IMG/VR virus record: IMGVR_UViG_3300042891_000324
Coordinates: 1-20,380 of that record
Direction: 5' to 3' (one strand)
From: a virus
DNA: 20,380 bases
Made by a program: the position numbers and the translations under genes. A model generated the notes under the pieces. It was not told the origin of the DNA, did not search any database, and saw only the letters and a list, made by a program, of their open reading frames with translations. This document shows positions 1 through 8,293 of the stretch, one piece after another; within the stretch, counting starts at the first letter, position 1; the number at the start of each line of letters is the position of its first letter.

Positions 1-402
1 CCTAACCTTCCGCATGTACGCCGCCTGATACAGCGCATAGTCCTGGACAGACAAACGCCAGTCGTCGTAGTACGCATGGCCCGTATGCTCACGACTGCAT
101 GTCGTAGGTCTTGACCTTGCGACCTTCATGCCGAACGCATTGTTGGTCTGCATAAATCGATTAGATGTAAAGTGACCACTCTCCAATATAGCCTGAGCGA
201 ACGCGATGTGCGGAAACTTAATACCGCACTGCTTCACGTAGCTATAAAAAACTTCAGGGCTGAAAGAAGGATGATTGTGAACAACGGCCTTCTTCCCCTC
301 AACGATCTTAGTTACTACTATTGTCTCCTTACTCTTATAGGATAAGAGCACAAATGATATTAGCCCTACAGCGACTATCAAATTATTTCGATGATAAACC
401 AT
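1..402 (-). CDS. Glucosaminidase-type peptidoglycan hydrolase, N-terminal part (cut by window edge)
   Basis: The reverse strand reads open from an ATG at 402 to the window edge (134 codons). Residues 1-22 contain a hydrophobic stretch (NNLIVAVGLISFVLLSY) that fits a signal anchor. From about residue 50 the protein matches the pattern of the FlgJ/LytG-type glucosaminidase domain (GH73 family): a helix with AQAILESGHF, where the Glu is the expected catalytic acid, followed by SNRFMQTNNAFGMK. Such enzymes cut the GlcNAc-MurNAc glycan strand of peptidoglycan. In a phage this could serve lysis or cell-wall penetration, and a second, different cell-wall enzyme lies at 15891. Its start overlaps the small membrane gene at 378-533, which suggests a coupled pair. 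The assignment is from motifs read by eye and the C-terminus is not in the window. Confidence 0.75.
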   Translation of the reverse strand, partial: MVYHRNNLIVAVGLISFVLLSYKSKETIVVTKIVEGKKAVVHNHPSFSPEVFYSYVKQCGIKFPHIAFAQAILESGHFTSNRFMQTNNAFGMKVARSRPTTCSREHTGHAYYDDWRLSVQDYALYQAAYMRKVR

Positions 403-533
403 AACGTTCCGATTAGATTAATAAATAAACAAATGAATAATATCCATACAGTATACCTGTGAAATGGATTCCATAACGCTGAAACGATGATCGCGTAAAA
501 CGTTACGATTAAAAATAAAGGACTGTACCACAT
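378..533 (-). CDS. Small double-membrane-span protein, holin-like
   Basis: A 51-residue reading frame on the minus strand starts with ATG at 533 and overlaps the glucosaminidase start by 25 bases in another frame. Almost the whole protein is hydrophobic: span 1 is about residues 4-20 (SPLFLIVTFYAIIVSAL) and span 2 about residues 29-49. A short turn with HRY lies between them, and a Glu sits near the end. Two short spans directly ahead of a muralytic enzyme fit a small class II-type holin, but tiny membrane proteins are common in phage early regions and no family was recognised. It is the first gene after the hairpins that follow the tRNA-like element. The role is inferred from topology and position only. 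Confidence 0.55.
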   Translation of the reverse strand: MWYSPLFLIVTFYAIIVSALWNPFHRYTVWILFICLFINLIGTLWFIIEII

Positions 534-562
534 AGTTAATTGAATTTAAATTAAGTTAAACA

Positions 563-585
563 AAGGAGGGGAACCACCCCCTCCT
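563..585 (-). terminator. GC-rich hairpin, probable intrinsic terminator (minus strand)
   Basis: AGGAGGGG (564-571) and CCCCTCCT (578-585) form an 8-bp stem around a 6-base loop. On the minus strand the stem is followed by a U-rich run (TTTGTTT). It lies between the tRNA-like element and the 51-residue membrane gene, so it would end or attenuate the tRNA transcript before the lysis-type genes. Confidence 0.5.
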
Positions 586-597
586 ATGAAACCAAAT

Positions 598-624
598 AAA
601 ACATGTCTACCATGAACATGTTTT
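598..624 (-). terminator. Hairpin directly after the tRNA-like element
   Basis: AAAACATG (598-605) pairs with CATGTTTT (617-624). On the minus strand this hairpin begins right after the 3' end of the tRNA-like element and ends in U-rich sequence. It could be a terminator or an RNA-processing and 3'-end protection signal. Confidence 0.45.
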
Positions 625-711
625 GTTCAGGCGATGGACTCGAACCATCTACAGGGACTTAAAGGAATTCAACGCTATAAGTTTGTAAGCTACCTTACTA
701 CCCGACCTAAT
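625..711 (-). tRNA. tRNA-like element, atypical or degenerate
   Basis: The minus strand carries a textbook T-arm: the stem GATGG/CCATC encloses the loop TTCGAGT. It is followed by GCCTGAA, which pairs imperfectly with ATTAGGT about 80 bases upstream (6 of 7, two of them G-U). A D-arm-like stem (GTAG/TTAC around a loop with GGTAG) is also present. The middle is abnormal. The only clean stem found is ACTTA/TAAGT, which encloses 16 bases instead of 7, so no anticodon can be assigned. CCA is not encoded. A promoter lies 13 bases upstream and two hairpins follow, as expected for a small stable RNA. It could be a decayed phage tRNA, a tRNA mimic, or a class II tRNA whose fold I could not resolve. 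Confidence 0.45.
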
Positions 712-723
712 CACTAATACATG

Positions 724-755
724 CAAATCTATGCAATTCTTATAAACTTTGCAAA
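724..755 (-). promoter_or_regulatory. Bacteroidota-type promoter for tRNA-like element and lysis-type genes
   Basis: Read on the minus strand, TTTG (755-752) is followed after 20 bases by TAGATTTG (731-724), a full match to the -33 TTTG / -7 TAnnTTTG consensus. Initiation would fall just ahead of the tRNA-like element. The inverted pair GTCAACA (761-767) / TGTTGAC (780-786) lies immediately upstream and could be an operator or activator site. Confidence 0.7.
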
Positions 756-1073
756 TCTCTGTCAACAAATGTTGCAAAATGTTGACTCAGTGCTGACACA
801 AAAATGTGTAACTGCCTGACTGCCAATAGACTAACCTATTTTAGTGCTGAGATGACGACATGACGCTTATTTTTTTATTTTTTTTATCTCCACGCCCCAT
901 CTCCCTTTATATATACTCTATTATTTTTTTTTCTAATTAATTAGAGTAAAGAGTAACATCTTAACACTAAGAAAGCTGAAAGCTAGACTGGCAAAGGGCT
1001 AGACATAGTTTTGCGGGCAACATCAACACAACATTTGTCAGCACGATTTAACAGATTTTAACAAATCTTGACA
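756..1073. other. Gene-free spacer between the two leftward units
   Basis: No credible reading frame was found here. The stretch holds the inverted pair GTCAACA/TGTTGAC upstream of the leftward promoter, several T-rich runs (870-890 and 920-932), and the palindromic TCTAATTAATTAGA at about 932-945. The hairpin AGATTT-TAAC-AAATCT (1053-1068) sits directly after the last gene of the small-gene array, where it could weakly terminate transcription. Confidence 0.5.
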
Positions 1074-1271
1074 CTAATTCAGGAAGATATCCTCAATCGC
1101 TACAGCTGTGCACCTAAGTGGTGCATAGTGCATCACCTCGAATTCTTGGATACCCATATCTAACATGTACGCTACGATCTCGCTGTACCTCTCCACATGA
1201 CTCTCCCCATACAGCACACCTATCACCCATTCCTCTGGAATGCCAACAGGTCTGACGACTGCTTGCCACAT
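1074..1271 (-). CDS. Small protein of unknown function, last gene of the leftward array
   Basis: A 65-residue protein beginning MWQAVVRPVG. The open frame extends 7 codons further upstream to a TTG, but the ATG at 1271 lies one base after the TGA of the preceding gene, so ATG is the better start. The sequence is mixed polar and hydrophobic with no signal peptide or membrane span. It contains VIGVLYGESHVERYSEIVAYM and an acidic C-terminal helix (VAIEDIF). I recognise no family. Tight coupling to the membrane gene upstream suggests they are translated together. Confidence 0.6.
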   Translation of the reverse strand: MWQAVVRPVGIPEEWVIGVLYGESHVERYSEIVAYMLDMGIQEFEVMHYAPLRCTAVAIEDIFLN

Positions 1272-1272
1272 A

Positions 1273-1374
1273 TCACTTACGTTCTTCCTCAATTAGCACA
1301 TCGATTACTCCGATCAAACCGTAGAAGCCTGCCATCAACAGCAGGCTTTCTACTACAAAGATAACTACTTCCAT
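1273..1374 (-). CDS. 33-residue single-span membrane protein
   Basis: A tiny minus-strand gene, ATG at 1374 and TGA at 1273-1275. The protein MEVVIFVVESLLLMAGFYGL continues with a hydrophobic stretch and ends in a charged tail (LIEEERK), giving one membrane span of about 25 residues. Its leader ends in GCC before ATG, like most genes of the array, which supports it being real. It ends one base before the ATG of the next gene. Function is unknown; single-span micropeptides in phage early regions often act on host membrane proteins, but nothing specific can be claimed. Confidence 0.55.
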   Translation of the reverse strand: MEVVIFVVESLLLMAGFYGLIGVIDVLIEEERK

Positions 1375-1379
1375 GGCTT

Positions 1380-1940
1380 CTAATTTTCGTTAATACTATA
1401 CTGGCTAATCTCGTCCTTGTAGAACATAGAGATATGCATATCATCAAAGTACATAGGCTCTTCAACCTCCTCATTGCGTAGGATAAAGTCCAGGACTGCA
1501 CCGAGTTTATGCTCGTCGTTAGAGAATTCATCCAACCAATCGAATGGATCTATTGAATGGTAGCTAATGAAACCGTCTCGACTTGTGTACCTATCAGCGA
1601 TATACCTATCGAACGTTTGGAAGTTAGCAAGTAGGTATCTGTATACCTTTAGGTAATCGAATTCAACATCGATGTAGATCGCATCGTTCTCGAAGTTGTA
1701 GTAATTTGGGCTCGCAATACGTTCGAACGTGATCTCTGATACGAATGGACGCAGTTCCTCTTCAACGAACTCACACATCTTTTTCGCTATCGTCTCATGG
1801 TACTTCTCCCAATCAACCATATCATCGAACGTCGTTCCTTCAGGTAGCTTGTAGTGCTCATCCTCTCCGTAAAAATCTACGTCATCCCATATTGATCCGT
1901 AGAATCCGCTGAACAGCGGTAAAAATGTTTTTGCTTTCAT
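1380..1940 (-). CDS. Conserved accessory-element protein, unknown function (186 residues)
   Basis: This is the largest gene of the leftward array. The N-terminus FLPLFSGFYGS (residues 6-16), the block SPNYYNFEND (77-86) and YTSRDGFISY (118-127) are a pattern I associate with uncharacterised proteins on Bacteroidota phages and conjugative elements. The protein is acidic and rich in aromatic residues, with no membrane span or signal peptide. Such small acidic proteins can be DNA mimics or inhibitors of host defence, but no catalytic motif is visible and that is speculation. The leader carries the shared ACCAAATAAA-type motif and ends in ACC directly before ATG. It starts 2 bases after the stop of the upstream gene. 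Confidence 0.8.
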   Translation of the reverse strand: MKAKTFLPLFSGFYGSIWDDVDFYGEDEHYKLPEGTTFDDMVDWEKYHETIAKKMCEFVEEELRPFVSEITFERIASPNYYNFENDAIYIDVEFDYLKVYRYLLANFQTFDRYIADRYTSRDGFISYHSIDPFDWLDEFSNDEHKLGAVLDFILRNEEVEEPMYFDDMHISMFYKDEISQYSINEN

Positions 1941-1942
1941 GG

Positions 1943-2161
1943 TTACTTGTTTATTTGGTTTAACATCTGTCTATCTATAGACTCCCATTTCTCGATCATC
2001 TCCAAGTCATTTAAATCCTGGATCGCATCTTTGCTCATGGTGTACGTCTTCTCGCTACCTTGGAATCTAACGTGGCGCATGTACCTATTCAACTTGTTAG
2101 GCCAATACTCTACGATCTTTCCGTAGCTTTTAAGCTTCTGATCTGTTACTCTTCCGTACAT
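1943..2161 (-). CDS. Small basic protein of unknown function (72 residues)
   Basis: ATG at 2161 lies 2 bases after the stop of the upstream gene. The protein starts MYGRVTDQKLKSYGKIVEYW and continues with RHVRFQGSEKTY and TMSKDAIQDLNDLEMIEKW. The alternating hydrophobic pattern of the first half suggests a small beta-barrel or SH3-like fold, followed by one helix. It is basic at the front and acidic at the back. The leader shows the array motif in a variant form (ACGAAATAAAAC, then GCC before ATG). The pattern resembles small uncharacterised Bacteroidota phage proteins; no function is known to me. Confidence 0.7.
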   Translation of the reverse strand: MYGRVTDQKLKSYGKIVEYWPNKLNRYMRHVRFQGSEKTYTMSKDAIQDLNDLEMIEKWESIDRQMLNQINK

Positions 2162-2163
2162 GG

Positions 2164-2367
2164 CTATCGTTTTATTTCGTAATCGTAATTCGTAACGTAG
2201 TTAACTAACGGCAATGGTTTGTTTTGTACGTACTGATCAATCATCTCCATATCAGTTACTCGTTTCTTGAATACCACAACCTCGTCGTTGATTACTAGTT
2301 CAACTGTTGCGTTATATGCACCGTGTCCGCTTGGCATGACAGATGCGTAATGAATTGTTGCTTCCAT
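2164..2367 (-). CDS. Small protein of unknown function (67 residues)
   Basis: ATG at 2367; the frame closes 2 bases before the next gene starts. The sequence MEATIHYASVMPSGHGAYNA is followed by TVELVINDEVVVFKKRVTDM and a short helix, ending YDYEIKR. This alternation predicts a small all-beta domain with one helix. Its leader (CAAAATAAATAACTAGGAATT-type) departs from the ACC-ATG consensus of its neighbours. It has no membrane span and no recognised family. Confidence 0.65.
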   Translation of the reverse strand: MEATIHYASVMPSGHGAYNATVELVINDEVVVFKKRVTDMEMIDQYVQNKPLPLVNYVTNYDYEIKR

Positions 2368-2376
2368 AATTCCTAG

Positions 2377-2541
2377 TTATTTATTTTGTTCTACAAATCG
2401 TTGCAATACCTCTTGCAACTGTTCCTTTATATCTTCAATGATCATGTCATCAAGGGGACTGATGTCCCCAGTTGACAATCCATTCTCCTGCGCAACACCG
2501 ACAAACATGTCGTTGATTGCTTGATCAATTATTTCTTGCAT
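2377..2541 (-). CDS. Small acidic helical protein (54 residues)
   Basis: A minus-strand frame from ATG at 2541 to TAA at 2377-2379. The protein MQEIIDQAINDMFVGVAQEN continues with GLSTGDISPLDDMIIEDIKE and a final amphipathic helix QLQEVLQRFVEQNK. The centre SGD/TGDISP between two helices is typical of a small uncharacterised family in Bacteroidota mobile elements, judged by eye. It starts 2 bases after the upstream stop and its leader ends GCC-ATG, so it fits the array. It was found by reading the gap between neighbours. Function is unknown. Confidence 0.65.
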   Translation of the reverse strand: MQEIIDQAINDMFVGVAQENGLSTGDISPLDDMIIEDIKEQLQEVLQRFVEQNK

Positions 2542-2543
2542 GG

Positions 2544-2819
2544 CTATTGGTTATTAATTGCTTCTTCATACGTCTCGAAAAACATCTCATCAAACATCTC
2601 GTCTCCAATTGCTTCGATGATATACTCAACGTCACGTCCTATCATTGAACCGATTGTTACTCCATTCTCTAGCGCGATGTAAACATATCCGCTGTTTGCG
2701 TTGAATCCGATATCCATGATATCAGCTCTGTTACAATGCTCAGCATATGCGTCAAAACATTTGCTCAATCCTTTTGCTTCTAGGTAGGCAATGCTACCGC
2801 TTAATCCGTTAATCTTCAT
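2544..2819 (-). CDS. Conserved small phage protein (91 residues)
   Basis: ATG at 2819, with the shared leader (ACCAAATAAAAAATAGAAACC-like) just upstream. The protein begins with a helical part (SGSIAYLEAKGLSKCFDAYAE). A two-strand core NSGYVYIALENGVTIGSMI (about residues 42-60) follows, and an acidic helical tail ends FETYEEAINNQ. The NSGYVYIALENG motif recurs in small proteins of gut and aquatic Bacteroidota phages as I recall them. There is no membrane span and no catalytic motif. Function is unknown. Confidence 0.75.
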   Translation of the reverse strand: MKINGLSGSIAYLEAKGLSKCFDAYAEHCNRADIMDIGFNANSGYVYIALENGVTIGSMIGRDVEYIIEAIGDEMFDEMFFETYEEAINNQ

Positions 2820-2842
2820 GGTTTCTATTTTTTATTTGGTTA

Positions 2843-2956
2843 TTAATTAAATGCCAACAGATATGTACACATTCCGTCAGCTAATGTGATACGCAAAGCT
2901 TTCATGCGTAATTGCGTCATGCGATCATTTAGATCGAATATTTCATTTGTCTTCAT
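2843..2956 (-). CDS. 37-residue protein of unknown function
   Basis: This small frame runs from ATG at 2956 to TAA at 2843-2845. It overlaps the 3' end of the upstream gene by 14 bases, so translation could be coupled. The protein is MKTNEIFDLNDRMTQLRMKA followed by LRITLADGMCTYLLAFN. It is short and lacks the usual leader because that sequence lies inside the neighbouring gene. Support comes from position and from otherwise unexplained space in a tightly packed array. Confidence 0.45.
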   Translation of the reverse strand: MKTNEIFDLNDRMTQLRMKALRITLADGMCTYLLAFN

Positions 2957-3092
2957 AGCATCTGAATTTACGTCCGTAACGGATATACATCCGCATGTGT
3001 TTAACTGCTTCCTTTCTATCGTTTGCGTTAACGATTGTTCTGTCTATCTCTCCGCCATCGGGAGCGATTAGAATAAATCTATACCTTTTCAT
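2943..3092 (-). CDS. Small basic protein, MKRYR family of the array (49 residues)
   Basis: ATG at 3092, TGA at 2943-2945. The protein MKRYRFILIAPDGGEIDRTI is followed by VNANDRKEAVKHMRMYIRYG and a short basic end. It has a beta hairpin followed by an Arg/Lys-rich helix. Its opening MKRYR and general layout resemble the product at 3869-4054, so the two may be old paralogues. The leader is one of the best copies of the shared motif (AACCAAATAAAAC, then GCC-ATG). Function is unknown. Confidence 0.65.
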   Translation of the reverse strand: MKRYRFILIAPDGGEIDRTIVNANDRKEAVKHMRMYIRYGRKFRCYEDK

Positions 3093-3102
3093 GGCGATTG
3101 TT

Positions 3103-3252
3103 TTATTTGGTTAACTCAATTATATCGTTGTAAATCTCAATGATTTCCTCATTAGAAAAAGTAAGCAAGTCGATCTTATCTTTATCGTTATGGCTGTTCT
3201 CAACTGCTAGTAGTATGAACTTAATCATCTCGTCTCTTTTTATCGCTTCCAT
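3103..3252 (-). CDS. Small acidic helical protein (49 residues)
   Basis: ATG at 3252, TAA at 3103-3105. The protein MEAIKRDEMIKFILLAVENS is followed by HNDKDKIDLL and TFSNEEIIEIYNDIIELTK. It looks like two amphipathic helices with an acidic C-terminal half. The leader is a near-perfect copy of the shared motif (AACCAAATAAAAC, AATTACC-ATG). A GC-rich hairpin lies just upstream at 3276-3293. No family recognised. Confidence 0.65.
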   Translation of the reverse strand: MEAIKRDEMIKFILLAVENSHNDKDKIDLLTFSNEEIIEIYNDIIELTK

Positions 3253-3275
3253 GGTAATTGTTTTATTTGGTTAAT

Positions 3276-3293
3276 ACGCGGATCGCTCCGCGT
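3276..3293 (-). other. Intercistronic hairpin with GNRA-type tetraloop
   Basis: ACGCGGA and TCCGCGT form a perfect 7-bp GC-rich stem. On the transcribed (minus) strand the loop reads GCGA, a GNRA tetraloop. It lies in the gap between two small genes, directly upstream of the shared translation leader of the 3103-3252 gene, and is not followed by a U run. That fits an mRNA processing or stability element better than a terminator. Confidence 0.5.
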
Positions 3294-3323
3294 TTCGTCT
3301 ATCTAAGACTCGTCAGTTAACAT

Positions 3324-3518
3324 TTACTCTTTTAATGATTCAATCAAACAAAAATATTTATCATATAAATCGTTGAATACATCTTGTGCGTCATCTGTAT
3401 AATGAGTAATTCCAGCTTGCTCATCCTCGAAAATCTTAATAGAATCAGACCATTTTTCTACTAATTCTATATGTGCTAATTCACTAGCTAATTCTAATAC
3501 ATCAATTATTACTTTCAT
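3324..3518 (-). CDS. Small acidic protein of unknown function (64 residues)
   Basis: ATG at 3518. The protein MKVIIDVLELASELAHIELV continues with EKWSDSIKIFEDEQAGITHY and a helical acidic end (FNDLYDKYFCLIESLKE). Its leader (CATTTAAAAATTAGAAATC before ATG) differs from the ACC-ATG type. Its codons look more AT-rich than those of its left-hand neighbours. It is strongly acidic, with no membrane span. An acidic helical protein of this size could be a protein-protein inhibitor, but there is no specific evidence. Confidence 0.6.
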   Translation of the reverse strand: MKVIIDVLELASELAHIELVEKWSDSIKIFEDEQAGITHYTDDAQDVFNDLYDKYFCLIESLKE

Positions 3519-3543
3519 GATTTCTAATTTTTAAATGTTAATA

Positions 3544-3648
3544 CTATTTCCAAGCAGTGATTCGTCGCTTGCTTGTGCTTACTAATTTACCTTCTACGAA
3601 GAATCCGATAATCTCGAATTGACCTTCTATCTTAATGATTTTGCTCAT
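3544..3648 (-). CDS. 34-residue basic protein
   Basis: ATG at 3648, TAG at 3544-3546. The protein MSKIIKIEGQFEIIGFFVEG continues KLVSTSKRRITAWK. It looks like a single beta sheet with a basic C-terminus. The leader (AACCAAATAAACC, then CACC-ATG) is a clear copy of the array motif, which supports real translation despite the short length. Function is unknown. Confidence 0.55.
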   Translation of the reverse strand: MSKIIKIEGQFEIIGFFVEGKLVSTSKRRITAWK

Positions 3649-3689
3649 GGTGTTTGGTTTATTTGGTTTAAATTTTAGCCAGTCAAGAA

Positions 3690-3845
3690 TTATACAATCT
3701 TGACGTTCTTATATTTCATTATCACTTTACATGCATCTACACTTGGTAGTGTAGCTTTATACACAACGTTACCTTCTCTATCTAAAGCTTGCATAATGTA
3801 ATACTCGCTGTTGATTTTGCTTAGAATTATTAAATTGAATTTCAT
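3690..3845 (-). CDS. Small protein of unknown function (51 residues)
   Basis: ATG at 3845, TAA at 3690-3692. The protein MKFNLIILSKINSEYYIMQA continues LDREGNVVYKATLPSVDACK and ends MKYKNVKIV. Its beta-rich opening resembles other small array members (the MKRYR proteins). The leader ends AATTACC-ATG. An inverted repeat, GTCAAGA/TCTTGAC, overlaps its last codons (3682-3704) and could form a hairpin at the end of the message. Confidence 0.6.
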   Translation of the reverse strand: MKFNLIILSKINSEYYIMQALDREGNVVYKATLPSVDACKVIMKYKNVKIV

Positions 3846-3868
3846 GGTAATTGTTTTATATGATTACT

Positions 3869-4054
3869 TTACTGTTCGAATTTTAGGTTGTCTTCGTTTA
3901 AACCCTTTAATTCTCTACTTGCTTCTCTATAGCTAATGTGTTCACAACTGAAAATGCAGTTATCTAAATTATCAACTATAACGTATCTTTTTTGACCTAC
4001 GTAATCTAATTCATCACTTGGTGCAAACGTCTGTTCAATTCTATATCTTTTCAT
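3869..4054 (-). CDS. Small protein, MKRYR family of the array (61 residues)
   Basis: ATG at 4054. The protein MKRYRIEQTFAPSDELDYVG continues QKRYVIVDNLDNCIFSCEHI and a charged helix SYREASRELKGL. It shares the opening MKRYR and a beta-then-basic-helix layout with the gene at 2943-3092. The leader (AATAAACCAAATTACC-ATG) is a shortened form of the array motif. No catalytic or metal-binding pattern is clear; the two Cys are isolated. Function is unknown. Confidence 0.65.
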   Translation of the reverse strand: MKRYRIEQTFAPSDELDYVGQKRYVIVDNLDNCIFSCEHISYREASRELKGLNEDNLKFEQ

Positions 4055-4076
4055 GGTAATTTGGTTTATTAATCTA

Positions 4077-4199
4077 CTATCCTAATCCTGTGTGACTTGC
4101 ATATACATGCCCACTACAGGCCATCACTACGACAAACATAAATGCCGCAACAAATAAGCTAATGAAAGCTACTTCGATCAATCTTTCTACTGTTCTCAT
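4077..4199 (-). CDS. 40-residue single-span membrane protein
   Basis: ATG at 4199, TAG at 4077-4079. The protein MRTVERLIEVAFISLFVAAF continues MFVVVMACSGHVYASHTGLG. One membrane span covers about residues 9-27 and ends in MACSG, so a lipobox-like Cys follows the hydrophobic stretch. It could therefore be a small lipoprotein or a simple inner-membrane peptide. The leader is a strong copy of the array motif (AACCAAATAAAAAC, then GTACC-ATG). Confidence 0.6.
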   Translation of the reverse strand: MRTVERLIEVAFISLFVAAFMFVVVMACSGHVYASHTGLG

Positions 4200-4223
4200 G
4201 GTACTTGTTTTTATTTGGTTAGT

Positions 4224-4301
4224 GGTGCAGTGGTTATCGCTACCATTAATCAGTCATTCTGACTGCACCGTGTGTGATCGCCGCGACAACTGTCCGCGAT
4301 C
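4224..4301 (-). other. Structured leader region of the leftward array
   Basis: Several perfect inverted repeats lie within 80 bases. GGTGCAGT (4224-4231) pairs with ACTGCACC (4262-4269). CAGTCA-TTC-TGACTG (4251-4265) overlaps the first and would be mutually exclusive with it. GATCGC (4276-4281) pairs with GCGATC (4296-4301). All lie between the leftward promoter and the first well-supported gene, directly upstream of its translation leader. Alternative hairpins in this position fit an attenuator or RNA-level switch. They do not match any riboswitch class I can recognise. Confidence 0.45.
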
Positions 4302-4350
4302 CGTCTATTATTTCAGCATTCTCAACATCCCGACTAGATGTTGTGCCCAT
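4246..4350 (-). CDS. Possible 34-residue leader peptide
   Basis: A minus-strand frame from ATG at 4350 to TAA at 4246-4248 encodes MGTTSSRDVENAEIIDGSRT followed by VVAAITHGAVRMTD. It is the only frame between the promoter and the first firm gene, and it overlaps the hairpin region. It lacks the shared translation leader seen at its neighbours, so it may be chance. If translated it could act as a leader peptide that affects folding of the downstream hairpins. Confidence 0.25.
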   Translation of the reverse strand: MGTTSSRDVENAEIIDGSRTVVAAITHGAVRMTD

Positions 4351-4506
4351 TGTGTAAAGTAGATAACGTCCGCACCGCTTGTCACTATCTAATTACATAT
4401 TTCAAAGAACTGTTGTTGTTGTTAGCTTTGTTCAGTGGTTGGCTTTGTCACCCCCTTTTAATTACTCTTAAGCTTTATCTGAGGTCGTTCCCTCATCTTG
4501 TTGAAA

Positions 4507-4539
4507 CAAAGATAATGCAAGTTGAATGAGTTATGCAAA
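4507..4539 (-). promoter_or_regulatory. Main promoter of the leftward small-gene array
   Basis: On the minus strand TTTG (4539-4536) is followed after 21 bases by TATCTTTG (4514-4507), a full Bacteroidota -33/-7 pair. Transcription would start near 4500 and read through the structured leader into the small genes. The upstream element sits inside the inverted repeat at 4529-4552, so a protein bound there would block it. Confidence 0.7.
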
Positions 4540-4558
4540 CTTTCGCATAACTTTTTTT
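4529..4558. promoter_or_regulatory. Inverted repeat over the leftward -33 box, operator or terminator
   Basis: AGTTATGC (4529-4536) and GCATAACT (4545-4552) form a perfect 8-bp inverted repeat with an 8-base centre, followed on the plus strand by seven T. Read as RNA on the plus strand it is a weak intrinsic terminator. Read as DNA it covers the -33 element of the leftward promoter. There is no convincing plus-strand gene upstream, so an operator role seems at least as likely. Confidence 0.45.
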
Positions 4559-4671
4559 CATTTTATAGCTTATTTATACTCATTCTAAATAAAAATACAT
4601 GTTATACTTTGCTTTTATATCGGTTTATCTATTGATTATCAGATAGTTAGAAAGAACGATCTATCTGGATC

Positions 4672-4691
4672 GCCCGATTTTTGGGCTTTTT
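4672..4691 (+). terminator. Short GC hairpin with T tract
   Basis: GCCC (4672-4675) and GGGC (4683-4686) flank GATTTTT and are followed by five T. AGATAG/CTATCT (4641-4646 and 4661-4666) could form a second hairpin just upstream. No plus-strand gene precedes it, so if real it would end a short non-coding RNA or block readthrough. Confidence 0.35.
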
Positions 4692-4857
4692 ACGGTTAGC
4701 TGATGTTATTCAACGTCTAAGAACATGCGGCCTTGATCCACGAACGAACGAACGGCATGCCGATTGGTTGACTGGCTGAACGTCTTGCGCGCGGTAGGAT
4801 CTTCTTGTCCTATAATTTACATTATGTTAAATAGAATGGATGATCGAATGGACGTCG

Positions 4858-4955
4858 GCACATACATACGTACGTACGTCGGTAGGTCTATCTATATACC
4901 TACAGCTGTACCCATCTATATACATACATGTGTGTATACATATATACATGTATAC
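4858..4955. repeat. Alternating pyrimidine-purine tracts in the central spacer
   Basis: Bases 4917-4955 alternate pyrimidine and purine without a break for 39 bases (TATATACATACATGTGTG and so on). Bases 4858-4879 alternate for 22 bases, with CATACATACGTACGTACG. Such tracts are prone to Z-DNA and to easy unwinding, and the included palindromes (for example TATACATGTATA) can extrude as cruciforms. No frame across this region looks like a real protein. Confidence 0.6.
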
Positions 4956-5030
4956 CTACCTACCTATGCACCCCCTCAACAAAAAGCTAAAAAGTTCAAT
5001 GCATTTACCCAAAATCGATACCCCCCACCT

Positions 5031-5160
5031 CGATTTAGATCGGTTTTCGTTTGATGGGTGCTTACGTCAAATGGGTATATTACCCACTACCCCCGAATAT
5101 GCGACCCCCGAAAAAAGATGTTAGAATTTGTTGAAAAGCCCGATTTAGTGTCGGTTTGTG
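5031..5160 (+). repeat. Two direct copies of a CGATTTAG..CGGTTT motif
   Basis: CGATTTAG-AT-CGGTTTTCG (5031-5049) and CGATTTAG-TGT-CGGTTTGTG (5141-5160) are near-identical direct repeats about 110 bases apart. Between them, ACCCCCGAA occurs twice (5089-5097 and 5104-5112). They lie in the gene-free region and look like protein-binding sites. Confidence 0.5.
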
Positions 5161-5254
5161 CTGAGTTGATGTTACATGCAAAACTCCTACAGCCCAGTCG
5201 TAGTAAGGGTTTTAGTGTTTTTAGTGTTAAGATGTTGACTTTTTTACCAATTAT

Positions 5255-5320
5255 AAAAAAAAAAAAATAGTATATATATAGTAGTAGTAGTAGGAAAAAA
5301 TAAAAAAAATATTTTTTTTT
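5255..5320. other. A/T-only stretch with homopolymer and short tandem repeats
   Basis: A run of about 13 A is followed by a TATATATA tract, four to five GTA units, a second A-rich part and a run of about 10 T. This low-melting segment sits immediately left of the phased TCGACA array, the arrangement expected of a DNA-unwinding element beside initiator sites. It contains no protein frame. Confidence 0.55.
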
Positions 5321-5328
5321 GCAGTAAA

Positions 5329-5451
5329 GTCGACATCTCGACACTAAAAATTGTTAACATGCACAGAATCAATAACTTACGTGTTTTTGAGTCGACATTT
5401 TCTCGACACTGGACCGACATTTCTCGACACAAGTCAACATTTTCGTACATT
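5329..5451 (+). repeat. Phased TCGACA repeat array, candidate iterons
   Basis: Seven copies of TCGACA or a one-base variant were read: 5330-5336, 5338-5344, 5392-5398, 5403-5409, 5414-5420 (CCGACAT), 5424-5430 and 5434-5440 (TCAACAT). The last five start at intervals of 11, 11, 10 and 10 bases, so they face the same side of the helix. The trailing base alternates T and C (ACAT / ACAC). The array lies between the A/T-only stretch and the first rightward gene. It fits binding sites for a replication initiator or a regulator. Confidence 0.6.
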
Positions 5452-5493
5452 CAGAGGTCTAAGAGGCGTCAGACGAACTATGTGCTGCGTTGG

Positions 5494-5508
5494 CTTACCG
5501 ATGGTAAG
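5494..5508 (+). promoter_or_regulatory. Short inverted repeat ahead of the first rightward gene
   Basis: CTTACC-GAT-GGTAAG forms a perfect 6-bp inverted repeat 19 bases before the ATG at 5528 and is followed by GTATATAATG. It could be an operator or a hairpin in the leader. No TAnnTTTG element was found directly upstream, so the promoter of this unit is not identified. Confidence 0.35.
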
Positions 5509-5527
5509 AGGTATATAATGATGAACA

Positions 5528-5824
5528 ATGAAGAGTAGGCTTCTTTGCATAGATGATTCCATCAAGGCGGACCAAATAGAGTTCGTGTGCATGGTGTATC
5601 CGCAGTGGGTGAAGAAGGGTGAGGAGTATACTGTTCGGCAGGTATTGGAGAACGATGGGATTGTCACTGGTGTTTTATTGGAGGAGGTTCGTAACGAGGA
5701 GATCTTCCAACAGCTTCTTGGTCGGTATCAGGAGCCAGCGTTTAGGATGAGTAGGTTTGTAGAAATAACTGCGTGCGAGAACTCTGTTTGTAATTCATTT
5801 GAATTTACTAACTTTGTTGAGTAA
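5528..5824 (+). CDS. Small conserved protein with WVKKGEEYTV motif (98 residues)
   Basis: This is the first rightward gene. The protein has LLCIDDS (residues 5-11), YPQWVKKGEEYTV (24-36), then GVLLEEVRNEE and a C-terminal part with FRMSRFVEI. Small proteins with a leading CIDD and a W-x-K-x-G-x-x-Y-T-V core are common in Bacteroidota genomes and phages as uncharacterised one-domain proteins, likely an SH3-like barrel. There is no membrane span. Codon choice differs from the next gene, which is more AT-rich. The next gene starts 20 bases downstream, so the two are probably co-transcribed. Confidence 0.75.
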   Translation: MKSRLLCIDDSIKADQIEFVCMVYPQWVKKGEEYTVRQVLENDGIVTGVLLEEVRNEEIFQQLLGRYQEPAFRMSRFVEITACENSVCNSFEFTNFVE

Positions 5825-7032: not shown

Positions 7033-7392
7033 ATGAAGAAAGCAATCTTAGCGGCAGTTATGGTATCGGTTAGTATCATCGCCACAGCACAAACATTTGA
7101 ATCACCAATTCTTTACAAGAACATCGATGAAAGTAATCCGCATGAATGGGTTATGCTTGAAACCGATACAAACTTAATGTTAATATATGGAGATAAAGGT
7201 TTTATAGATGATGTATCAAGCGAATGGTTTGTAGAAAATGGTTTAGATATAACAAAACCAGATGAAGTAAAATCTACAAGAAAACATGACATTGATGTAT
7301 GGTATACTGTGAATAAATTCAATGAGCCTTTAAAGGTTGCTATTTACGAAGACAAAACAACAAAGACTTTTATAATAGGCATTCTAGAATAA
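7033..7392 (+). CDS. Small exported protein (119 residues)
   Basis: Residues 1-20 are a clear Sec signal peptide (MKKAILAAVMVSVSIIATAQ) with a likely cut after ATA-Q or AQ. The mature part is acidic with a mixed alpha/beta pattern and no Cys, and ends TKTFIIGILE. An exported phage protein could modify the host envelope, for example in superinfection exclusion, or be carried as cargo. I recognise no family. It is bracketed by its own promoter and by the terminator of the downstream repeat cassette, so it is a single-gene unit, often a sign of a horizontally gained gene. A fragment resembling its N-terminal mature part (LYKNIDES) occurs at 8164-8217. Confidence 0.75.
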   Translation: MKKAILAAVMVSVSIIATAQTFESPILYKNIDESNPHEWVMLETDTNLMLIYGDKGFIDDVSSEWFVENGLDITKPDEVKSTRKHDIDVWYTVNKFNEPLKVAIYEDKTTKTFIIGILE

Positions 7393-7414
7393 ACCACCAC
7401 TCTACATAACGAAG

Positions 7415-7442
7415 ACGCACACTTAACGGTGTGCGTTTTTTT
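7415..7442 (+). terminator. Intrinsic terminator of repeat copy 1
   Basis: ACGCACAC (7415-7422) and GTGTGCGT (7429-7436) form a perfect 8-bp stem around TTAACG, followed by seven T. It ends the exported-protein unit. Confidence 0.8.
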
Positions 7443-7445
7443 ATT

Positions 7446-7453
7446 TATCTTTG
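7446..7453 (+). promoter_or_regulatory. Promoter -7 element of repeat copy 1
   Basis: TATCTTTG matches TAnnTTTG. The expected -33 position falls in the terminator loop (TTAAC), a weak match. Transcription would start in the following A-rich run, leaving a leader of roughly 10-20 bases before the ATG at 7472. Confidence 0.6.
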
Positions 7454-7471
7454 TCAAAAAAAAAGGAAATT

Positions 7472-8161
7472 ATGCCAACAGTACCAAGTGGAACCAAGTT
7501 TATAGGCATCTCATCTAATGTAGACACATTGGAGCGGAAGTCATCTTTAGCGAACAGCCCATCACAGATTTATACGATTGATGATATAGTATCTTCTGTA
7601 CCTGCTCAAGAATCAGTATCGGGTATTCATGCATTGATTAAGCCAATTTCAGGAATGTTGATTACTCCAGCTGTAGCAGGTGGAGGACAGACTACTGTTA
7701 ACTATCCAGCAGCTGACACTATAGTTGCATACCCGTTTATACCTAATAATACTTTTAGTGTTACAGAGTTAAATGTAGAGGTAACTACAGCAGCTTCAGG
7801 CAACAACATAAGAGTTATGATATACTCTCATGGTGAATCAACTGCTCTTCCAGATCAGAAGTTATTTGAATCTGACAATGTATCAACAACATCAACAGGA
7901 GTTAAGGTTATACCATGTAGTTTTGAGTTTGTAGCTGGAGAGACGTATTGGTTTGCATCGCATGGTGGGTCATTGGGTATTGGCATGAGGGCGTTAGATT
8001 CACCTCAGTTGTTTAGTATAGGTATCAATCCAGCTGACGGTAATATTATCAATATAATACTTAAGACAGGTGTTCCAGTTGGTTCAGCACCACAGACATT
8101 TGGCACATCTGTATCACCATCGTTTGGTAAGGCGTGGAGAGTTATTTTAAAAGCTGAGTAA
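7472..8161 (+). CDS. Virion appendage or receptor-binding protein (229 residues)
   Basis: The start is set at ATG 7472. An upstream in-frame TTG at 7451 lies inside the promoter element and is rejected. The N-terminus PTVPSGTKFIGISSNVDTLE, then KSSLANSPSQIYTIDDI, is a conserved opening that I associate with tail-fibre and appendage proteins of Bacteroidota phages, probably for docking to the virion. After a linker ending at about residue 65, a beta-rich C-terminal domain follows (for example IRVMIYSHGES, FEFVAGETYWFASHGG), resembling a jelly-roll carbohydrate-binding module. It most likely binds the host surface. It has its own promoter within the repeat cassette. Confidence 0.7.
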   Translation: MPTVPSGTKFIGISSNVDTLERKSSLANSPSQIYTIDDIVSSVPAQESVSGIHALIKPISGMLITPAVAGGGQTTVNYPAADTIVAYPFIPNNTFSVTELNVEVTTAASGNNIRVMIYSHGESTALPDQKLFESDNVSTTSTGVKVIPCSFEFVAGETYWFASHGGSLGIGMRALDSPQLFSIGINPADGNIINIILKTGVPVGSAPQTFGTSVSPSFGKAWRVILKAE

Positions 8162-8217: not shown

Positions 8218-8241
8218 CAACCACCACTCTACATAACGAAG

Positions 8242-8270
8242 ACGCACACTTAACGGTGTTCGTTTTTTTT
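8242..8270 (+). terminator. Intrinsic terminator of repeat copy 2 (one mismatch)
   Basis: ACGCACAC (8242-8249) and GTGTTCGT (8256-8263) pair except for one position, followed by a T run of eight including the arm end. It ends the 7472-8161 unit, perhaps incompletely. Confidence 0.65.
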
Positions 8271-8273
8271 GTT

Positions 8274-8281
8274 TATCTTTG
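8274..8281 (+). promoter_or_regulatory. Promoter -7 element of repeat copy 2
   Basis: TATCTTTG, identical to copy 1, lies 12 bases before the ATG at 8294. Initiation about 5-7 bases downstream would give an almost leaderless message that begins in the A run. Confidence 0.6.
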
Positions 8282-8293
8282 TCAAAAAAAAGA

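Follow-up and report, generated by a model that had tools for sequence, protein, structure and literature searches.

The viral record IMGVR_UViG_3300042891_000324 is contained in full in the window analyzed here, a stretch of 20,380 bases. Its genes include TerL (phrog_6681), GroEL, GroES, an amidase and an endolysin-like gene. Tiny genes oriented leftward form one block and face a second, rightward block that includes GroEL and TerL, a layout common to MW202828 and the elemo phages. The subject of this study is the leader, a short A-rich sequence that recurs in front of the start codons of the leftward array (Table 1). The closest named record by TerL is MW202828.1, with 68% identity; further relatives, at about 30-41%, infect Flavobacterium, Cellulophaga, Maribacter and Tenacibaculum. 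Of three genome-bin contigs that carry a related TerL, two belong to Polaribacter and Flavobacterium. TAnnTTTG is a promoter element of Bacteroidota, and such motifs are found upstream of several late genes of the window. The hosts of the named relatives, the promoter motifs and the genome-bin contigs suggest a probable Bacteroidota phage.

Three other records of the same genus carry related arrays, among them G001 (IMGVR 3300044630_001714) and G002 (3300042356_000196). G002 and G003 give the same alignment coordinates, which leaves three distinct arrays including that of the window. Searches with the MKAKTF and MYGRV proteins for further array relatives returned only the same three records, and a nucleotide search of the array against GenBank phages gave no match. 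Rfam produced only sub-threshold eukaryotic matches in the window.

The leader and the genes it precedes

In the array region, counted as the minus strand of 1300-4300, AACCAAATAA occurs in six exact copies, compared with a mean of 0.008 and a maximum of 1 in 1000 dinucleotide shuffles. In each of the six, an ATG follows 9-11 nt after the end of the AACCAAATAAA core. Alignment of 12 array starts gives a consensus of AACCAAATAAAAC at about -20 to -8, followed by a spacer and A/G-C-C at -3 to -1. The 30 nt before these starts have a mean pairwise similarity of 9.32, against 5.65 +/- 0.22 for the same leaders shuffled and 4.07 +/- 0.20 for other minus-strand ATGs of the region. The corresponding value for 22 rightward (late-type) starts is 4.88, and 4.53 for their own shuffles. 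The late-type starts of the window lack the leader, and several carry their own TAnnTTTG element just upstream.

An earlier note on this DNA had listed six copies and proposed that at least eight genes share the leader without a Shine-Dalgarno (SD) sequence. All six positions are correct. These strict leaders are accompanied by about four partial copies (before the genes starting at 2161, 2541, 3845 and 4054) and by three leaders of a second flavour, AAATTAGAAATC, AACTAGGAATT and AAAATTAGAAGCC, before 3518, 2367 and 1374, which end in TAGAAGCC, TAGGAATT or TAGAAATC. No array leader contains a GGAGG-type SD, and a single one (2367) contains AGGA. The note's expectations that the motif would be enriched at starts over shuffled AT-matched sequence, and missing from late genes, were also borne out. 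In some cases the stop codon of the upstream gene falls inside the next leader, as for the genes at 3103-3252 (ending in ELTK) and 1943-2161 (ending in NQINK).

Table 1. Features of the leftward array, listed in the direction of transcription
Feature	Position	Strand	Remark
Candidate promoter, Bacteroidota-type (TTTG, 21 nt, TATCTTTG)	4507..4539	-	Consensus match only; candidate driver of leftward array
Leader AACCAAATAAAAACAAGTACC before gene 4077-4199	4200..4222	-	Orthologous leader kept in G001, G002
Small gene, 40 aa (MRTVERL)	4077..4199	-	Membrane-like
Variant leader AATAAACCAAATTACC before gene 3869-4054	4055..4077	-	
Small gene, 61 aa	3869..4054	-	
Variant leader ATCATATAAAACAATTACC before gene 3690-3845	3846..3868	-	
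Small gene, 51 aa	3690..3845	-	
Leader AAACCAAATAAACCAAACACC before gene 3544-3648	3649..3671	-	
Small gene, 34 aa (MSKIIK)	3544..3648	-	Conserved in relatives
Second-flavour leader TTAACATTTAAAAATTAGAAATC before gene 3324-3518	3519..3541	-	
Small gene, 64 aa (MKVIID)	3324..3518	-	MKIEKI in its place in G002
Leader TTAACCAAATAAAACAATTACC before gene 3103-3252	3253..3275	-	
Small gene, 49 aa	3103..3252	-	
Leader TTAACCAAATAAAACAATCGCC before gene 2943-3092	3093..3115	-	Holds preceding gene's stop
Small gene, 49 aa	2943..3092	-	
Leader AATAACCAAATAAAAAATAGAAACC before gene 2544-2819	2820..2842	-	Near-identical leaders in G001, G002
Gene, 91 aa (MKINGL)	2544..2819	-	Absent/replaced in relatives
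Short leader AATAACCAATAGCC before gene 2377-2541	2542..2564	-	
Small gene, 54 aa (MQEIID)	2377..2541	-	Leader differs in each of three genomes
Second-flavour leader AAAATAAATAACTAGGAATT before gene 2164-2367	2368..2390	-	
Small gene, 67 aa (MEATIH)	2164..2367	-	Absent in G001, G002
Partial leader GAAATAAAACGATAGCC before gene 1943-2161	2162..2184	-	
Small gene, 72 aa (MYGRV)	1943..2161	-	
Leader AAACCAAATAAACAAGTAACC before gene 1380-1940	1941..1963	-	In G002 leads unrelated MSNKELK
Gene, 186 aa (MKAKTF), phrog_37559	1380..1940	-	Function unknown
Second-flavour leader TTAACGAAAATTAGAAGCC before ORF 1273-1374	1375..1397	-	
Opposite-orientation leader copy AACCAAATAAAAC	590..602	+	Complement GUUUUAUUUGGUU in leftward RNA
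Intrinsic terminator-like hairpin	564..585	-	Left end of array

Probable translation initiation in a putative leftward operon

The promoter match TTTG-N21-TATCTTTG lies about 300 nt upstream of the first array ATG, and the terminator-like hairpin at the other end is strong. Three more minus-strand TAnnTTTG matches occur within the array (4140, 3356 and 1363), none of them in a leader. The simplest reading is that of one long leftward transcript on which each open reading frame (ORF) would have its own leader. Leaders were also considered as promoters and rejected, as TAnnTTTG motifs never coincide with them and a sigma-70 scan of 400-5600 shows no excess. The array is framed by a diverged inverted repeat (about 72%) at 908-1033 and 5159-5280.

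Ribosomes of Bacteroidota do not use SD pairing (PMC6847099), and their anti-SD is sequestered (PMC9976891). In F. johnsoniae, initiation is favoured by A at -3, -6, -12 and -13 together with weak structure (PMC6847099). Among the 12 array starts, A is found at -11 in 12, at -10 and -7 in 11 each, and at -12 in 10. Position -6 is A in eight and G in the rest, position -3 is A in nine and otherwise G (A/G in 12/12), and -13 is evenly divided between A and T (6/12 each). The mean minimum free energy of -25 to +25 is -1.25 kcal/mol for the array starts, -3.8 for the late starts and -5.9 for random array windows; the leader region of 3252 has a folding energy of 0.0 kcal/mol. Array leaders share with the SD-less, Kozak-like initiation regions of Bacteroidota (Baez 2019, PMC6847099) the lack of an SD, A at -3, -6 and -12, and low structure around the start. 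They differ in that those regions show weak positional preferences across the genome, whereas the leader hardly varies in sequence, having CC at -1/-2 and AACCAAATAAA from about -20 to -10.

The earlier note had suggested a common initiation signal recognized by ribosomal protein S1 or a phage factor. The leader is consistent with such a signal, being enriched, locked to starts, absent from late-type starts, SD-free, A-rich at -3/-6/-12 and weakly folded. The phage-encoded factor found no support: no protein with an S1 domain (PF00575) or of the bS21 family (PF01165) was detected in 16 related records, several of them fragments, in searches that did detect the positive controls. Reading of the upstream A-rich part by bS1 has been proposed, not shown, for F. 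johnsoniae (PMC6847099), and recognition of the leader by host bS1 is possible.

Gene exchange at the leader-ATG border

Gene content differs between the three arrays, and the differences tend to begin at the ATG. For instance, the 30 nt upstream of MKVIID in the window are identical (30/30) to those upstream of the unrelated MKIEKI in G002. Likewise, 29 of 30 upstream nt are common to MKAKTF in the window and MSNKELK in G002, and 29 of 30 to MKINGL in the window and MQEIID in G001. MRNLTAEQ in G002 sits behind a close version of the MKINGL leader. By contrast, a different leader precedes MQEIID in each of the three genomes, and the same is true of MKAKTF. Because unrelated ORFs share the leader of a slot and one gene has different leaders, the leader appears to belong mostly to the slot, with the ORF changing at the ATG. 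Ends of alignment blocks in the array fall into leader zones, each taken to reach from 25 nt upstream of an ORF to 5 nt into it, in 14 of 21 cases; circular shifts give a mean of 2.7 and reach 14 in 0.18%. This supports, without proving, that homology between leaders drives the exchange.

We consider it probable that the leader is an initiation region of this phage lineage that doubles as a shared border for exchanging small genes. It would stand ahead of each small ORF in one polycistronic leftward, probably early, operon, where host ribosomes that ignore SD sequences could start at every ORF independently on an A-rich, nearly unfolded leader. An additional role as a marker of ORF borders would explain why it is so much more uniform than Bacteroidota leaders in general. 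With a common leader in all slots, co-infecting relatives may recombine such that an ORF is swapped, added or dropped at the leader-ATG border, and a working initiation region would remain ahead of the incoming ORF. We infer translation from the leaders, early timing and homology-driven exchange from the sequences compared here.

Several observations weigh against this reading. C at -1 (11/12) and -2 (10/12) lies outside the Flavobacterium determinants. In most other relatives, such as G010, G012, G018, G021 and the elemo phages, the leftward small-gene arrays have a less uniform leader, and the genus is represented by just three distinct arrays. ERF and RecT recombinases were searched for and none was found; an exonuclease and SSB are present in G002. 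Finally, random joins filtered by selection for intact ORFs would likewise place block ends at gene borders. The causal role of leader homology is thus unproven, since such selection would leave joins at the same places.

An unlikely alternative, already partly refuted, is that each leader converged independently on the optimum of the host's SD-less ribosomes (a bS1 or A-rich preference) and plays no part in recombination. The A positions and low structure do match the F. johnsoniae determinants, and the spacer between core and ATG varies in length while the core is constant. However, this phage's late genes and the Flavobacterium elemo phages use many different A-rich leaders, and array leaders also agree in spacer bases and in C at -1/-2 and -17/-18. 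Moreover, identical leaders of 29-30 nt precede unrelated ORFs in homologous slots, which indicates descent and not convergence.

Slightly less likely still is a model of gene-plus-leader cassettes, in which each ORF travels with its own copy of a leader that was multiplied by duplication. The earlier note had raised the spread of such units; exchange of genes between relatives is evident, but the leader mostly remains in its slot and the swap concerns the ORF alone. The cassette model would account for TTAACCAAATAAAACAATTACC, which is common to MTYYSIK in G001 and MEAIKRDE in the window in different flanks, and for the orthologous genes MRTVER and MSKIIK, which keep their leaders in relatives. 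That MQEIID and MKAKTF have three leaders each, and that slots keep their own, argues against it.

A third proposal is joint control of all array genes by a trans-acting regulator that targets the leader, for example an antisense RNA or a repressor that binds RNA. The leader is indeed restricted to one operon, and a single plus-strand copy of AACCAAATAAAAC, conserved in relatives, places the full 13-nt complement GUUUUAUUUGGUU in the leftward RNA between a hairpin and the terminator. Three genomes have the same sequence over about 95 nt around this copy, although in G001 the tRNA-like stretch next to it has been exchanged. The one-strand chance of the 11-mer is about 1%, and the 13-mer was found in 0/400 shuffles. 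Duplexes of the complement with the six strict leaders have energies of -11.8 to -16.8 kcal/mol, compared with -7.6 +/- 2.5 for random 30-mers of the array. Nevertheless, the second-flavour leaders at 2367 and 3518 pair with it no better than random, a hairpin sequesters half of the complement, the opposite-strand ACCAATAA is absent from G013, and the pattern was noticed after the fact. A search for the RegA family gave no match, and the positive control likewise went undetected. Overall, such a regulator seems improbable. A more specific version, self-regulation of the array mRNA, in which GUUUUAUUUGGUU between the tRNA-like element and the terminator would pair with most leaders and shut off the small genes together, is given even less credence; if true, new ORFs dropped behind a leader would come at once under the same self-regulation. 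The region is AT-rich, yet dinucleotide-preserving shuffles and the other ATGs of the same region rule out an artefact of composition almost completely.

The tRNA-like element at the array end (624-712, minus strand) is degenerate. A different tRNA-like element occurs at 6622-6747 of L091, with a match to RF00005 of 39 bits and a 33-nt insert in the anticodon loop (ARAGORN).

Related border elements and other phages

The closest parallels are found in two families of repeats. The start-associated sequences (SAS/ESAS) of cluster K mycobacteriophages are short asymmetric repeats immediately upstream of the starts of many unrelated non-structural genes (Pope 2011, PMC3203893). Like the leader, SAS are lineage-specific and lie in one orientation, with a single reversed copy in some cluster K genomes, and the stop of the upstream gene may fall inside the repeat. 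Unlike the A-rich, SD-free and variably spaced leader, SAS is a 13-bp sequence, GGGATAGGAGCCC, with an SD core (PMC3203893), and the window shows no inverted-repeat extension. The second family comprises the promoter early stem-loops (PeSLs) of T4-like phages, which, as summarized in a later article, are also repeated sequences at gene borders linked to the shuffling of small genes (Arbiol 2010; Comeau 2014, via PMC4503421). By that account, a PeSL consists of an early promoter and a stem-loop; the leaders have neither. Because the leader lacks a defining feature of each family, it is assigned to neither SAS nor PeSL, and is best described as an initiation leader that has no SD and also serves as a border for gene exchange.

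A second border element of the window is nearer to T4 PeSLs, as far as these are described there, than the leaders are. A 73-nt direct repeat (7392-7463 and 8219-8291, 96%), made up of a hairpin terminator, TATCTTTG and an A-rich leader, flanks the late ORF 7472-8161, and can be viewed as bounding a PeSL-like cassette. Three relatives (L087, L088 and L089) have a single copy of the repeat, and most of the ORF is unmatched in them. The presence of the repeat around a replaced or missing late ORF makes repeat-bounded gene turnover in the genus more credible.

Uniform leaders also occur in more distant relatives. G013 and G014 (TerL 73% and 72%) have arrays with a uniform leader of their own, TATAAACCAATAAAAAACTAGAAAYT, of the form TAAACCAATAAA...CTAGAAAYT. 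In these genomes AACCAATAAA is found in nine and eight copies, respectively, on the array strand only (expected, 0.3 and 0.13), and TAGAAAYT-ATG in nine and 12 (expected, 0.1 and 0.2). Different genes stand behind near-identical leaders there too, and a core of AACCAA-TAAA common to the leaders of the window and of G013/G014 suggests common descent. Outside close relatives, a pattern scan of viral contigs gave almost only single, chance-like matches among the matches listed. Four leader copies in G027 were rejected as a parallel case, as they sit before mutually similar lipoprotein-like genes and are explained by paralogy.

Other repeated elements were encountered in the same comparisons. In MW202828.1, the palindrome GTGTCGTTAACGACAC occurs 14 times (0 expected) within 43745-55154, several copies lying 16-23 nt before leftward starts and some elsewhere, also within genes; it is a possible operator. 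The replication-side part of the G014 array (37300-45900; L249, L250) has a second uniform leader, [CT][CT]AAAAGAAG-ATG, in eight copies (0 expected). A different phage (IMGVR 3300042691_042157; L213, 3200-9000) contains repeated head-to-head pairs of mutually similar genes with uniform leaders, in which MGYILDFNKW-type genes are paired with lipoprotein-like MKKL-type genes.

How phages accept small genes of no known function without breaking their expression is an open question. In this lineage the translation signal appears to serve as a standard joint, such that any ORF placed behind a leader would gain a start signal at once. This offers a testable rule on how the small-gene arrays of Bacteroidota phages turn over their genes. 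The leader may also serve as a marker for the true starts of tiny unannotated genes in SD-less phages, and provides candidate expression leaders for Bacteroidota.

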